This document shows, piece by piece, positions 7,755-42,047 of a stretch of DNA of 42,047 nt. Both the position numbers and the translations under genes were made by a program. Numbering within the stretch: position 1 is the stretch's first letter; each line of letters starts with the position of its first letter. Origin of the DNA: Lachnospiraceae bacterium (GTDB taxonomy: Bacteria > Bacillota > Clostridia > Lachnospirales > Lachnospiraceae); assembly GCA_017561085.1 (NCBI GenBank), contig JAFZDQ010000107.1, positions 1 through 42,047 on the forward strand. The letters run 5' to 3'. Below the pieces are notes generated by a model, which did not search any database, was not told where the DNA came from, and worked only from the letters and a program-made list of their open reading frames with translations.

Positions 7755-8090
7755 ATGAAAAAAGATACCGTAAATACTTTTGAAACCATGGAAGATGCTA
7801 CTGAAGAAATGACTGTTACCCTGGAGCTGGATTGTGGCAGCGTAACCTGCGCAATTGCTTCTATTTTTTCCGTAAAAGACAAGGATTATATTGCTCTGAT
7901 GCCACTTGATGAAGATGGACAGGGAGATGGTACCTACTGGTTCTACGGCTACAGTGAAAATGAAAACGACCCCAACGAAGAACCCAAACTCCGCTATATT
8001 GAGGATGATGAGGAATATGAAATTGTAGAAGATGCATTTGATGAAATTTTAGATAATGCAGAATTTGATGAAATTATTGATGTGCAGTAA
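7755..8090 (+). CDS. DUF1292 domain protein
   Basis: A small acidic protein (111 residues, rich in Asp and Glu) of the DUF1292 family, uncharacterised but widespread in Firmicutes. The typical core is visible: MTVTLELDCGSVTCAIASIF, then KDYIALMPLD, then WFYGY and the acidic C-terminal tail with EYEIVEDAFDEIL. AAGGAG lies seven bases before the ATG. It is transcribed alone from its own promoter, divergently from the GH13 gene. Its last 17 bases overlap the 3' end of the convergent helicase gene with no terminator between them. In other Firmicutes DUF1292 genes often accompany YqgF/YrzL genes; that is not the case here. Confidence 0.88.
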   Translation: MKKDTVNTFETMEDATEEMTVTLELDCGSVTCAIASIFSVKDKDYIALMPLDEDGQGDGTYWFYGYSENENDPNEEPKLRYIEDDEEYEIVEDAFDEILDNAEFDEIIDVQ

Positions 8091-37248: not shown

Positions 37249-38286
37249 TTACCAGGGCATCTGTACATTATCACCTAAAAACTTCCTTAAATCGATATTT
37301 TCAACTTTCTTACTGCGCATCATCAGTTCTTTCACTGCTTCGGATGCACTGGCGCCTTCAAATAAAATCTTATTCACCTGCTCTACGATGGGCATGCTGA
37401 CTTCATATTTTTTAGACAAAGCATAACCGGCTTTTGCAGAGTATACGCCTTCTACTACCATCTTCACTTCATCCATGGCTTCTTCCATACTCTTTCCCTG
37501 ACCGATTAAGATACCGGCACGACGGTTTCTGGAATGCATGGATGCACAGGTAACAATCAAATCACCGATACCGGTAAGGCCGTAAAATGTCTCCAGGCTA
37601 CATCCCATATGAATACCAAGTCTTGCAATTTCAGCAATTCCTCTGGTAATCAGGGCTGCTTTGGTATTGTCCCCATAGCCTAAGCCGTCAGCAATACCGG
37701 CTGCAAGCGCCACTACATTCTTAAGGGCTGCCCCAAGTTCAATTCCCTGCACATCTGAGCTGATATAAACGCGGAACACTTCATTCATAAAAAGGTTCTG
37801 TAAATATTCAGCAGTTTCCTTCTTTTTAGAACCTACAACAATAGAAGTGGGAATTCCTCTTCCTACTTCTTCCGCATGGGAAGGGCCGGACAATACAGAA
37901 ACATCGGCTCCCGGAATTTCTTCCTCAATAATTTCGGAAAGGGTCATCAGTGAAACATCCTCGATGCCCTTGGCAACATTTACGATTTTTTGTACCTTTG
38001 TTACAAAAGGCGCCATCTGGGCCGCTGTTTTACGGGTAAAGGGAGACGGTACCGCAAGCACCAGAACCTCTTTATCCTTTACTGCTTCTTCCAAATCAGT
38101 GGTAAAAATCATCTCATCGGAAAGAATTACACCGGGCAGTTTCTCCTTCTGCTCGTGAAATTCCTTTAACATATCAATTTCATTCTGAAGTGCTGACCAA
38201 ACGGTAATTTCGTTTCCGTTCTTCTGTAACAAAACTGCAAGCGCAATTCCCCAACTGCCTGCACCAATTATGCCTACTTTCGCCAT
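37249..38286 (-). CDS. gpsA: Glycerol-3-phosphate dehydrogenase [NAD(P)+]
   Basis: A 345-residue enzyme reducing dihydroxyacetone phosphate to sn-glycerol-3-phosphate for phospholipid synthesis. It has the N-terminal Rossmann motif VGIIGAGSWGIALAVLLQKNG, the catalytic-lysine regions VAKGIE and ALKNVVALAAGIADGLG, and LSGPSHAEEV plus GLTGIGDLIVTC. Length and motif order are normal. It directly follows plsY (26-base gap), which uses its product, so the pair makes lysophosphatidic acid. The GAAAGGGAATT leader supplies the ribosome binding site. Confidence 0.95.
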   Translation of the reverse strand: MAKVGIIGAGSWGIALAVLLQKNGNEITVWSALQNEIDMLKEFHEQKEKLPGVILSDEMIFTTDLEEAVKDKEVLVLAVPSPFTRKTAAQMAPFVTKVQKIVNVAKGIEDVSLMTLSEIIEEEIPGADVSVLSGPSHAEEVGRGIPTSIVVGSKKKETAEYLQNLFMNEVFRVYISSDVQGIELGAALKNVVALAAGIADGLGYGDNTKAALITRGIAEIARLGIHMGCSLETFYGLTGIGDLIVTCASMHSRNRRAGILIGQGKSMEEAMDEVKMVVEGVYSAKAGYALSKKYEVSMPIVEQVNKILFEGASASEAVKELMMRSKKVENIDLRKFLGDNVQMPW

Positions 38287-38312: not shown

Positions 38313-38960
38313 TTACAGTTCATTCTTCTTGGTCAGATATGTTTTTCTTTCATTACCCTTTATTAATCTTACAATATTATCCTTGTGCTTATAATACGCC
38401 ATAAATGTCAAAAATGCAGTAATCAGATACATTTCCGTTAAAATAGGGCGTGTCGTGTGAAATAAGCCCAATTCTCCGGAAATTACCATCTGAATCATTA
38501 CACCCGCATACACCAGAAGGGAGCCCAAAGACACATAGTGTGTCAGGAAAAAGGTTCCGAAAAACAGAAGTAACCCTACCGGTATAAAAGAAGGATGAAA
38601 TGCTGCAATAAATCCTGCTGTGGCTGCAATTCCTTTACCGCCTTTAAAATTCAGGTAAAAGGGGAAATTATGCCCTAAAATTGCGCCCAAAGCAGCATAT
38701 AACTTATAAAGATATCCCATCTCCGGATTATTTCTTCCGAATAACAAATAACATACTAAAATTGCCAGAATACACTTAATCATATCACCGACTAAAACAA
38801 TGGCTCCTGCTTTCTTTCCAAGCACTCTTAGTGCATTCGTGGTTCCGGCATTGCCGCTACCATGATTTCTGATATCGATTCCATTCATTCTTCCGTAAAT
38901 AAATGCAGTCTGAAACAAACCGAATACATAACCGATTACAACACATAATAAACGTTCCAC
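38313..38960 (-). CDS. plsY: Glycerol-3-phosphate acyltransferase PlsY
   Basis: A 215-residue integral membrane acyltransferase using acyl-phosphate to acylate glycerol-3-phosphate. Five or more membrane helices and the three conserved motifs are present: GSGNAGTTNALRVLG, FKGGKGIAATAG, and an A-Y-Y-K-H-K-D-N-I segment near the C-terminus. The start codon is GTG (38960-38958), one base after the der stop, with AGGAG in the last der codons; translational coupling is likely. It is followed by gpsA, which makes its substrate. Confidence 0.93.
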   Translation of the reverse strand: MERLLCVVIGYVFGLFQTAFIYGRMNGIDIRNHGSGNAGTTNALRVLGKKAGAIVLVGDMIKCILAILVCYLLFGRNNPEMGYLYKLYAALGAILGHNFPFYLNFKGGKGIAATAGFIAAFHPSFIPVGLLLFFGTFFLTHYVSLGSLLVYAGVMIQMVISGELGLFHTTRPILTEMYLITAFLTFMAYYKHKDNIVRLIKGNERKTYLTKKNEL

Positions 38961-38961
38961 G

Positions 38962-40299
38962 TTATTTATTCTCTCCTCTTTCCCTAATAATAAATTTCAG
39001 CGGAGTTCCTTTAAAACCAAAGGCCTCACGGATCTGATTTTCAATATATCTGGTATAAGAAAAATGCATTAATTCTTTATCATTTACAAAAATAACAAAG
39101 GTAGGCGGCTTCACGCCGGCCTGAGTAATATAATAAAGTCGCAGTCTCTTCCCTTTGTCTGAAGGGGGCTGCTGCATGGCAACTGCTTCTGCCATAATTT
39201 CATTTAAAACACCGGTAGAAATACGCATTGCGTGATTCTCAGCCACCGTGTCAATCAGTTCAAACAACTTCGGCAAACGCTGTCCTGTGGCCGCAGAAAT
39301 AAAGGTAATTTCCGCATAAGGCATAAAAGATAAAATTTCACGGATTTTTGCAGTATATTTATTTACCGTCTTATTATCTTTCTCAATGGCATCCCATTTG
39401 TTTACGGCAATAATCACAGCCTTACCGCGTTCATGGGCAACGCCCGCAATCTTTGCATCCTGCTCGGTTACACCTTCATTGGCATCAATCACAAGCACCA
39501 CAATATCCGCACGTTCCACCGCACTGACGGTACGTACGATCATAAATCGCTCTAATTCTTCTTTAATCTTATTCTTGCGGCGAAGACCTGCCGTATCGAT
39601 AAAGATATACTCTTTTCCGTTGTGTTTAATGGGCGTGTCCACCGCATCTCTTGTGGTACCGGCAATATCAGATACAATCAGTCTGTTTTCGCCTAACAAT
39701 TTATTAATCAAAGAGGACTTTCCTACGTTGGGCTTTCCTACAATAGCAACCCTTACACGATCATCCTCTTCCTCATCGGAAGCACCATCCGGGAAATAAG
39801 AAGTCACCTCATCCAGCATATCACCGATTCCAAGCTGATTGGATGCGGAAATTGCATGAGGTTCCCCGATACCCAAGTTATAAAATTCGTAAACATCCGC
39901 CATGTACTTTTCGAAATTATCTACCTTGTTTACAACAAGTACAACGGGCTTATGGGAACGGCGGAGCATGTCTGCTACTTTGGCATCGGCATCCACAAGA
40001 CCCTGCTTCACATCTACCATAAACATAATAACATCTGCTGTATTAATGGCAATTTCAGCCTGTTCTCTCATCTGGGACAAAATAATATCTTTGGAATCCG
40101 GTTCAATACCGCCTGTATCAATTAAGGTAAAAGACTTATCAAGCCAGGTAATATCCGCATAAATACGGTCACGTGTGATACCGGGTGTATCTTTTACGAT
40201 TGAAATTCTCTGTTTCGCCAACGCATTGAATAACGTGGATTTACCCACATTGGGACGTCCTACAATTGCTACAATGGGTTTGCCTTTTCTCTTATTCAT
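38962..40299 (-). CDS. der: Ribosome biogenesis GTPase Der (EngA)
   Basis: A 445-residue GTPase with two consecutive G domains and a C-terminal KH-like domain, needed for 50S ribosome assembly. Domain 1 has GRPNVGKST (14-22), DTGG and NKVD; domain 2 has GKPNVGKSS (188-196), DTAG and NKWD. The linker between them is acidic ([10 protein letters not shown]), as is common in Firmicutes. Its ATG overlaps the stop of the upstream DUF512 gene by four bases, and plsY follows after one base. Confidence 0.96.
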
Positions 40300-41651
40300 C
40301 GATTCACCTCTTCTACTATCGCATTAACAAAGTCATATCCGCTTGATTTTACAATAATTGCCTTAACTTGTAAAGCCTTTTCCAGTTCGCATACTCTTAC
40401 ATCATCCAGAAAAACATCCTCGCAGCTGCGCAGCACATTCACAGGTAAAAGGAGTTTTTCTCCCAATGCTTTTCCCTGCAACTGACCTATAATATCTTTT
40501 CCGGTAAGTAAACCGGATACGGTAATTAACTCACCGAAAAATTCATTCACAATAGGATATACATGAATGGTAAGCTCCGGGAACATCTCTTCCATTTTCT
40601 TCGCCATCTGTTTGATAAACGGATAAGCAAGTTTTCCCGTTGCCATGGAAATTTCTACGGGGCCATTTTTCTTTTTAAAAGGATTTTTCAGGAAAGGCTT
40701 TTTCTTTAGTGCCTTTTTGGCATCTTCAAATTCGGTAAGTAACAGCCTTAACATTCCCACGCCGTTTTCTAACTGGAGATAGCCGTCATAGCTTTCTTCC
40801 TCCGGTAAGTCCTGTCCGGCCATTAAATACCATTCATCGCTGGCATGTACGAAATGACAGCCATGTGTTTCCATACATTCATCCTGAAATGCATGAATGA
40901 CGGAAAGCACTTCTTTCGCATCTTCCTTTTGGAATGGTTCTAAGGGATATAAGCCTTCCCGATGCTTGGACAAACCAACAGGTACCACGGAAACGCTTTC
41001 TAAATAGGGAAGATATTTCATCATTTCACGGATACTGAACTTTAATTCTTCACCGTCATTGATTCCTTTACAAAGAACAATCTGACCGTTCATGGTAATT
41101 CCCGCTTCAAATAACCGGTCCATAATTTTCAGGGAATCCCCTGCGAAACGGTTATTCAGCATCTTACATCGAAGCTGCGGATTCATAGTTTGTATCGAAA
41201 TATTAATGGGAGAAAGATGATAGCGGATAATCCGGTCCACGTCGTGCTCCGACATATTCGTTAGTGTCACATAATTCCCCTGTAAAAAAGATAAACGGGA
41301 ATCATCATCCTTAAAATAAAGGGTTTCACGCATACCCTTCGGCATCTGGTCAATAAAGCAAAAAATACATTTGTTGTGACAGGAACGGTAATCATCCATC
41401 AAACCATTTTCAAAGACAATTCCCAAATCCTCGTCTTCATCCTTATCAACCTCTAATACCCACTGTTCGCCGTCTTGTTTTTCGATTAGGATTTCCAAAT
41501 ACTCATCCTGTACCAAAAACTGATAGTCAAAAATATCTTCCACCGGATTCTCATTGATGGAAAGCAGTCTGTCACCGGGCTGGATATCCAGTTCCTGCGC
41601 AATACTTTCCGGGATGACTTCTTTTACTATATGTCCTGTTTGTTTCTTCAT
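40296..41651 (-). CDS. PDZ-radical SAM-DUF512 protein
   Basis: A 451-residue protein of the DUF512 family. A short N-terminal PDZ-like domain (about 1-65, with [20 protein letters not shown]) is followed by a radical SAM core with the cluster motif [14 protein letters not shown], then by the DUF512 domain. The C-terminal [12 protein letters not shown]...[12 protein letters not shown] segment is diagnostic. The gene regularly precedes der in Clostridia; its reaction is not known to me. ATG at 41651 has AAGGA six bases upstream. A longer frame to 41687 would place the ribosome binding site inside the gene and is rejected. The start lies only 35 bases past the tandem repeat, so its promoter is either within the repeat array or further upstream. 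Confidence 0.92.
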
Positions 41652-41686
41652 ATCTATTCCTTCCGCGCTGCTTCGAAATGTCTGCA

Positions 41687-42047
41687 TTAAAATGTCTGCT
41701 TCGCAGCCGCTTTCTTTCCTTCCGCCTTCACGCTTTCGCTTTTTCCACGTAAACTCTGAAACTTCATACCTTCGGTACTCGTTTCATCGTTAGTATATCG
41801 GGTGAAAGAAAATGTCTGCTTCGCAGCCGCTTTCTTTCCTTCCGATTTCACGCTTTCGCTTTTTCCACGTAAACTCTGAAACTTCGCACCTTCGGTACTC
41901 GTTTCATCGTTAGTATATCGGGTGAAAGAAAATGTCTGCTTCGCAGCCGCTTTCTTTCCTTCCGCCTTCACGCTTTCGCTTTTTCCACGTAAACTCTGAA
42001 ACTTCATACCTTCGGTACTCGTTTCATCGTTAGTATATCGGGTGAAA
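41687..42047 (-). CDS. Tandem-repeat open frame, 40-residue units, N-terminus outside window
   Basis: A minus-strand frame without stops from the window edge to a TAA at 41687, at least 119 residues. It consists of three near-identical 40-residue units containing KFQSLRGKSESVK, then EGKKAAAKQTFSFTRYT, then NDETSTEG. The composition is basic and rich in Ser/Thr/Lys with no hydrophobic segment, so it looks unfolded. Units differ only at A/S before EGKK and M/A before KFQ. The period of 120 bases is a multiple of three, so openness in one frame follows automatically once a unit is open; translation is therefore not proven. The start could be an internal ATG (42007) or lie outside the window. I know no function for it. 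Confidence 0.45.
   Translation of the reverse strand, partial: FTRYTNDETSTEGMKFQSLRGKSESVKAEGKKAAAKQTFSFTRYTNDETSTEGAKFQSLRGKSESVKSEGKKAAAKQTFSFTRYTNDETSTEGMKFQSLRGKSESVKAEGKKAAAKQTF
41689..42047. repeat. 120-bp tandem repeat, three copies to the window edge
   Basis: Copies at 41689-41808, 41809-41928 and 41929-42047 (last one short by the window end). Copies 1 and 3 are identical over the visible length. Copy 2 differs at four positions in two adjacent pairs (41845-41846 and 41886-41887). There are no spacers. Each unit contains small hairpins with GAA loops on the minus strand (TACC-GAA-GGTA, CTGC-GAA-GCAG). The array probably continues beyond the window. Confidence 0.95.

Follow-up and report, generated by a model that had tools for sequence, protein, structure and literature searches.

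The 120-bp repeat at the end of the window, by which we mean the whole 42,047-nucleotide stretch of Lachnospiraceae DNA that was analyzed, probably consists of tandem copies of a small interspersed, non-coding element and lies in the leader of an operon between its promoter and its first gene. We read the family to which it belongs as a non-autonomous, promoter-proximal hairpin repeat that behaves like BOX elements and MITEs, is absent from Rfam and is not tied to a RAYT transposase. Searches of the open literature, the broadest of which covered the top-ranked papers, returned no published description of this repeat for Lachnospiraceae, and the family, which extends across Lachnospiraceae, a large gut-bacterial group, has apparently gone undescribed so far.

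The array and its host operon

Tandem Repeats Finder reported the repeat at 41,689–42,047 (element on the minus strand) with a period of 120, 3.0 copies, 96% matches and a score of 690. Unit 2 differs from unit 1 at four bases (unit positions 37, 38, 78, and 79, forming two adjacent pairs), and unit 3 equals unit 1 across all its 119 bases, in agreement with the three 120-bp copies and four differences described in a sequence-only reading of this DNA. Each unit carries a near-invariant hairpin tip, AAGCGRCTGCGNAGCAGRCATTT on the minus strand, located at 41,810–41,832 in the middle copy and at 41,930–41,952 in the distal copy of the window, both identified by pattern and covariance-model matches, and at 41,690–41,712 in the gene-proximal copy, identified by pattern match, model score and sequence. 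The last of these lacks the gene-side (3′) arm, as does the last copy of several arrays elsewhere, and scored 37.3 bits against the covariance model vs 59.2 bits for the other window copies. Also evident on the minus strand are the main-stem 3′ arm of the middle copy (41,791–41,809; TCTTTCACCCGATATACTA in RNA sense), whose full-length partner occurs only in the terminal copy on contig C42, and a second hairpin (stem A; 41,757–41,786), TGAAAC/GTTTCA around TACC-TTC-GGTA. Read by eye, this hairpin is framed by ACTC and TCGTTA, and the frame is identical in relatives. The minus-strand segment 41,665–41,688, between the array and the ribosome-binding site, is probably a scrambled remnant of a further copy; comparable truncated gene-side copies occur elsewhere.

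The end of the window is also the end of its contig (C116, in an assembly of 131 contigs), and the break falls inside the array, which the earlier reading had correctly seen to run off the window. Contig C42 opens with 79 bases of the array's repeat, followed by a different, terminal-type flank and then by prs. The flanking sequence, which that reading had proposed to consult for the total copy number, brings the array to at least four copies, each counted by its tip. The two contigs are almost certainly adjacent, since C42 carries prs, the divergent neighbor of the operon in all 29 relatives compared. Elsewhere in the window, a short imperfect tandem repeat lies at 8,017–8,075 (period 24, 2.3 copies).

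The array sits in the leader of the first operon gene (40,296–41,651, minus strand), which is preceded by a probable ribosome-binding site, GGAAGGAA (41,657–41,664, minus strand). This gene encodes a radical-SAM protein (DUF512 in the earlier reading) that matches NCBIfam TIGR03279 with an E value of 1.4e-117 and 393.1 bits, under the family cut-off of 574.7; it was matched in 35 of the 37 genus genomes, the window's own included. The three minus-strand genes behind it, der (ribosome biogenesis GTPase; 38,962–40,299; TIGR03594), plsY (38,313–38,960; TIGR00023), and gpsA (37,249–38,286; NF000941), all exceed their NCBIfam cut-offs; the earlier reading had named the operon DUF512-der-plsY-gpsA.

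For a comparison of the locus, 30 loci were fetched from the 35 genomes with a first-gene match; one was the window's own, leaving 29 relatives. In all 29, prs and the first gene are divergent neighbors, 104–330 bp apart. The promoter motif at the window locus, where the −10 box reads TAAAAT, is kept in 29/29 relatives, and the tip occurs in 0/29. A motif between prs and the operon, GTGACACGTCAAG (101–113 in locus L245, contig C42 of the window's genome), is kept in 29/29 relatives if one substitution is allowed, and appears to contain the two divergent −35 boxes, which lie on opposite strands and overlap. Two relatives (L239 of genome G002 and L240 of G001) carry a different insertion in the leader of the first operon gene, with GTGATNCAGGTGTGAGGGG and GTAACA motifs; their distances to prs are 330 and 284 bp, respectively. 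An insertion resembling it lies between rpsM and rpsK in G001 (L380).

Hairpin anatomy and leader position

In RNA sense, which is the window's minus strand, the element as read by eye consists of a TATAAT-like box, the 5′ arm, the tip, the 3′ arm, TAACGA, the second hairpin and GAGT, followed by the next gene. The tip has the consensus AAGCGR-CTGC-GNA-GCAG-RCATTT. Subtypes have little in common beyond the tip and the pairing: arm sequence varies while complementarity is kept, and the median match between the 5′ and 3′ arms is 17 bp, as compared with 5 bp when the two arms come from different elements (n = 154). Since the tip pattern was the means by which most copies were detected, conservation of the tip is partly built in; a model-based set relaxes this ascertainment, although its own alignment is fitted to the structure. 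In this alignment of 98 distinct rows, the covariation score was 0.275 vs 0.087 after shuffling, and 94.9% of the cells were paired, vs 41–48% after sliding one side by 1–3 columns. Double changes affected 8 of the 13 pairs, a count reached by 1 of 500 shuffles (shuffled mean, 4.9). An earlier alignment of 70 pattern-found copies gave a covariation score above all 500 shuffles and 5 of 13 doubly changed pairs, equalled by 131 of the 500 shuffles. The apical stem switches between CTGC/GCAG, CGGC/GCCG, CTCC/GGAG, CGCC/GGCG, and CACC/GGTG. Beside it lies a purine mismatch, G·A in 43 and A·G in 35 of the 96 rows with letters; on the plus strand, the oppositions among 151 pattern-based copies were T·C (96), C·T (42), TT (6), CC (4), and CG (3).

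The tip is of the d(GCGNAGC) mini-hairpin type, of which the DNA mini-hairpin d(GCGAAGC) is exceptionally stable (PMC10527192). The loop is GNA in 83 of the 98 model-aligned rows. Other GNA loops are reported to behave similarly. The terminal copy has a predicted folding energy of −29 kcal/mol (z −5.8); in an array-internal stretch (z −4.2), neighboring copies are predicted to pair with each other instead of forming separate hairpins.

Copies of the element are strongly oriented toward genes. The orientation set comprised 110 copies in named loci, of which 10 lay at a locus edge; 94 of the other 100 had a downstream ORF, defined as at least 90 amino acids within 500 nt on the RNA-sense 3′ side. 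The next gene was on the element's strand in 84 of these 94 rows (p about 1e-15), corresponding to 75 of 85 distinct genes. The same held for 25 of 31 copies (p = 0.0009) in a second set of 67 model matches, partly overlapping the first, from which 12 duplicates, 14 array-internal copies and 10 copies without an ORF had been removed. A naive caller placed 22 of the 110 copies inside an ORF of at least 100 amino acids.

Of 179 leading copies, 88 had an exact TATAAT starting 22–48 nt before the tip, whereas shuffling gave a mean of 4.5 and the other side and strand gave none in 175; the remaining 91 leading copies had no exact TATAAT in this range. The position is narrow, with 89 of 91 exact sites starting 23–28 nt before the tip. 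With one mismatch allowed, the box was found in 121/179 leading copies, vs 52 after shuffling and 13/175 on the other side and strand. These boxes suggest putative promoters, from which transcription starting about seven bases below TATAAT would begin at the foot of the hairpin.

The genes behind the copies include those for acetate kinase, glutamine synthetase, MreB, a RelA/SpoT-domain protein and ribosomal proteins. A Pfam family was assigned to 33 of the 40 downstream proteins that were scanned from among the 85 distinct genes. The families share no theme, no transposase is among those named, and only glutamine synthetase came up twice. A metabolite riboswitch with a fixed regulon was rejected, as the downstream genes are unrelated among the 40 of 85 scanned. 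A bidirectional terminator, suggested by the A- and T-rich arms of some subtypes, was dropped because the subtype of genome G144, as read, has no such arms.

The element could have been domesticated as a cis-regulatory RNA, in which a host protein or ligand binds the tip, the leader controls the downstream gene and tandem copies tune the response. We regard this as possible, though on the unlikely side. It accords with the position and orientation in leaders, with the strong predicted fold of the terminal copy and with an invariant internal loop, AAGCGR/RCATTT, in which a G·A or A·G opposition occurs in 78 of the 96 rows with letters. In addition, two loci (L060 and L142) have the element at the same crt-hbd site with arms that differ yet pair in each, as judged by eye. 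However, the downstream genes are unrelated, orthologous sites in relatives lack copies and no Rfam family corresponds: the window stretch had 0 matches up to E = 1, and 18 relatives yielded two rRNA genes plus three matches under the gathering score, which were taken as chance. Moreover, selection on RNA predicts an excess of G-U over A-C oppositions in RNA sense, and none was seen in whole arms (32 vs 33), in the model-aligned rows (8 vs 6) or in the inner stem of pattern-based copies, where A-C was the commoner (4 vs 13). Since G-U is no commoner than A-C, pairing appears to be kept without an RNA-type bias. Together with a tip of the d(GCGNAGC) type, arms that pair in this way make it possible to test whether hairpins can arise and be maintained at the level of DNA.

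Coding potential of the repeat

One minus-strand frame is open over the repeat, for 119 codons to the end of the window, as the sequence-only reading had noticed. That reading weighed a disordered repeat protein against a structured RNA or DNA repeat that merely looks coding, and it is the latter that better describes the data. A protein built of basic 40-residue units would account for the open frame, for a window period that is a multiple of three and for the one silent change (AAG to AAA) among the four unit differences, but we consider it very improbable. The other unit differences change residues (A to S and M to A), and conservation of the tip tracks base pairing, not codons. In arrays elsewhere, 42 spacings were listed, of which two of 27 bp and one of 47 bp were dropped; the other 39, all within 80–150 bp, ranged from 87 to 144 bp. 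Only 17 of them are divisible by three (p = 0.18 vs one third; copies within one array are not independent), and 22 break the frame, including spacings of 98, 100, 107, 113, 115, 118, and 125 bp. Thus, arrays in general keep no frame, and homologs show the frame breaks that had been named in advance as evidence against a coding role. Nor did protein searches lend support: the 119-residue frame had no NCBIfam match at E ≤ 0.001, a best Pfam E value of 0.066, far under the cut-off, and a best PDB match at E = 0.1. The open frame is taken as a by-product of composition and period, for which BOX elements set a precedent, large ones creating open reading frames that lack a known protein match (PMC3049150).

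Spread, mobility and relation to known repeats

BLAST with one unit matched 22 of 98 genomes, the window's own included; the matches were short and fell mostly in the first 36 bases of the unit, and in nearly all genomes at most nine candidates were scored. The part shared by these matches is AAATGYCTGCTTCGCAGYCGCTT on the plus strand. Allowing one mismatch, 22 of its bases were found in 19/37 genus genomes and 20/299 family genomes (own included), and a reversed-pattern control had 0 matches in every genus and family genome scanned. A covariance model of the tip and inner arms detected the element in 32/37 genus genomes at E ≤ 0.01 and, under stricter filters, in 8/391 genomes across the class; among the matches listed, 8/37 genus genomes had at least two at array spacing. 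A collection of named species contained at least 120 stretches with the tip, and the 80 titles listed were mostly Lachnospiraceae, its genera or other Clostridia, along with a few of higher rank only and one uncultured bacterium. The phage and plasmid collections had no match to the 359-bp array, and among viral contigs the tip pattern occurred in a single stretch, at a contig edge; a phage origin is therefore unlikely. A weak pattern match in the window's genome (contig C27, three mismatches) was dropped, as it lies in a coding stretch, presumably a ClpX-like C-terminus, and was not reported by the covariance model.

Two genomes point to recent movement. The 5′ arms are 95–97% identical among 12 loci fetched from G161 (which hold 13 of its 14 pattern matches) and among seven from G144, whereas the flanks, upstream and 100–150 nt downstream, are 27–29% identical, which is the chance level. 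Over the first 40 bases of the 3′ side, compared without gaps, identity is 75% in G161 and 92% in G144. From these alignments, the element has evidently been copied and dispersed recently within some genomes, and the earlier statement that no mobile element explains the repeat loses its support. Between rpsM and rpsK, the element was present in two (G018 and G007) of 29 readable loci, read by eye over 215 nt, from 30 that were fetched and included the window's own genome. In six further aligned sets of occupied and compared sites, the compared loci lack the tip; only in one set, between genes read as rpsK and rpsD (L185 vs L211), is the intergenic spacer alignable enough to locate the insertion, which is behind AGGAGG. 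The sequence TGRTATAATN stands at both ends of the seven G144 copies and of most fully read G161 copies, its 3′ occurrence lying partly in the element's own hairpin. A search for target duplications on the −10 box found exact TATAAT on both sides of only 26 of 179 copies. In G161, a further repeated module, TATAATGTCGCTAAGACATTATATCAGCGCAG...AATCATGATATAATG, occurs in variants chained next to the element (L247, L249, L252, L254, and L256) and is likewise bounded by TATAATG.

At the window locus, part of the stem resembles the leaders of relatives. The 5′ arm of the terminal copy, TAGTATATCGGAAGGAAAGAAA, includes 14 bases, TATATCGGAAGGAA, that the tip-less leaders of G006 and G016 also have just past their −10 box; the shared stretch is 7 bases long in G026 and 4–9 bases in the remaining relatives. 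The 3′ arm is complementary to TAGTATATCGGAAGGAAAGAAA and absent from the 95-nt leader stretches of relatives. We infer that the stem at this locus uses host leader sequence. Template switching at inverted repeats creates and maintains RNA hairpins (PMC8794818), and the process described there would provide a DNA-level route by which long arms stay complementary while their sequence changes, as here; it is a mutational mechanism, whereas the Lachnospiraceae element is a repeat family. Copies in G161 carry their arms along, so that arms are not rebuilt at each insertion.

The preferred reading, a non-autonomous mobile repeat, can be extended to a mechanism. A trans-acting factor would recognize the tip, and the element would insert immediately downstream of −10 boxes, aligned with transcription, which would place the hairpin at the start of the mRNA. 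Arrays may lengthen when identical units slip or recombine, and replication template switching may renew the complementarity of the arms and, at the window site, their pairing with host leader sequence. More tentatively still, and as a conjecture that we hold to be doubtful, the family might be a self-spreading regulatory RNA. It would then be a mobile leader module found throughout Lachnospiraceae that reaches −10 regions by a route other than Y1, inserts along the direction of transcription and builds the rest of its stem from an inverted copy of the host leader; the mRNA of each new host gene would then begin with a hairpin whose tip is recognized in trans. Copies in front of genes such as those listed above could alter expression from one close strain to another, and strains could readily come to differ in copy number.

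Streptococci, neisseriae and enterobacteria are known to have small interspersed repeats (PMC3049150). In Streptococcus pneumoniae, the BOX elements are interspersed hairpin repeats of small size whose tandem internal units vary in number; they are predicted to fold when transcribed and form 5′ or 3′ extensions of operons (PMC3049150). The Lachnospiraceae element is like them in its variable tandem units (39 spacings), its hairpin fold (z −5.8) and its 119-codon frame. BOX is modular, of the form boxA-boxB-boxC, and pneumococcal repeats downstream of genes have been read as a sign of parasitic mobility (PMC3049150); by contrast, every Lachnospiraceae unit carries the same tip, and its copies are strongly leader-oriented behind a −10-like box. 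On reading, the arrays showed one repeated two-hairpin unit and no separate end modules. Correia elements are small and non-coding, map mainly just upstream of genes and have sigma70-like promoter sequences (PMC10969869), all features in which the present element is like them and like promoter-carrying MITEs; it forms tandem arrays, whereas the review of Correia elements and MITEs nowhere uses the word "tandem" (PMC10969869). MITEs are characterized by terminal inverted repeats and target duplications (PMC3049150). The likeness to them is one of behavior (dispersed, non-coding and recently mobile, with 12 plus 7 loci and relatives' sites without the element), as these two hallmarks are not established for the Lachnospiraceae element.

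With REP/BIME palindromes, which are moved by a Y1 (RAYT) transposase, the element shares a hairpin with mismatches, tandem clusters and a dispersed, intergenic distribution. Nevertheless, membership in this type is highly unlikely, and the reading was rejected on the distribution of Y1_Tnp (PF01797). The domain is absent from 5 of 12 carriers (G161, G144, G251, G311, and the window's own genome), recently active ones among them, and occurs in 7 of the 12 carriers, compared with 9 of 12 genomes that had no pattern match. A RAYT/REP origin is contradicted, except in the case that the Pfam model misses a diverged Y1 enzyme. The search for a mobilizer, which covered Y1_Tnp, revealed none. The two-hairpin anatomy and the leader position also differ from REP/BIME; REPs are reportedly sorted by end tags.

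Least probable of all is an assembly artefact of the draft genome, which the sequence-only reading had raised and the contig break inside the array might suggest: unit 2 has four private changes, and it is the arrays of the same kind in other genomes, including those of a named strain record (L119/L281, Hominisplanchenecus faecis) and of G218 (L266–L272, eight contigs), that speak against it. On reading, a CRISPR-like array was rejected, the units being near-identical without unique spacers.

One of the G218 arrays (L271, contig C5) breaks off within a tip, immediately before the TATAAT of a gene that by eye is tRNA-like. In G080, a genome from another family of the same order, a copy of the tip lies between the 16S and 23S rRNA genes (L010, about 1,501–1,531).
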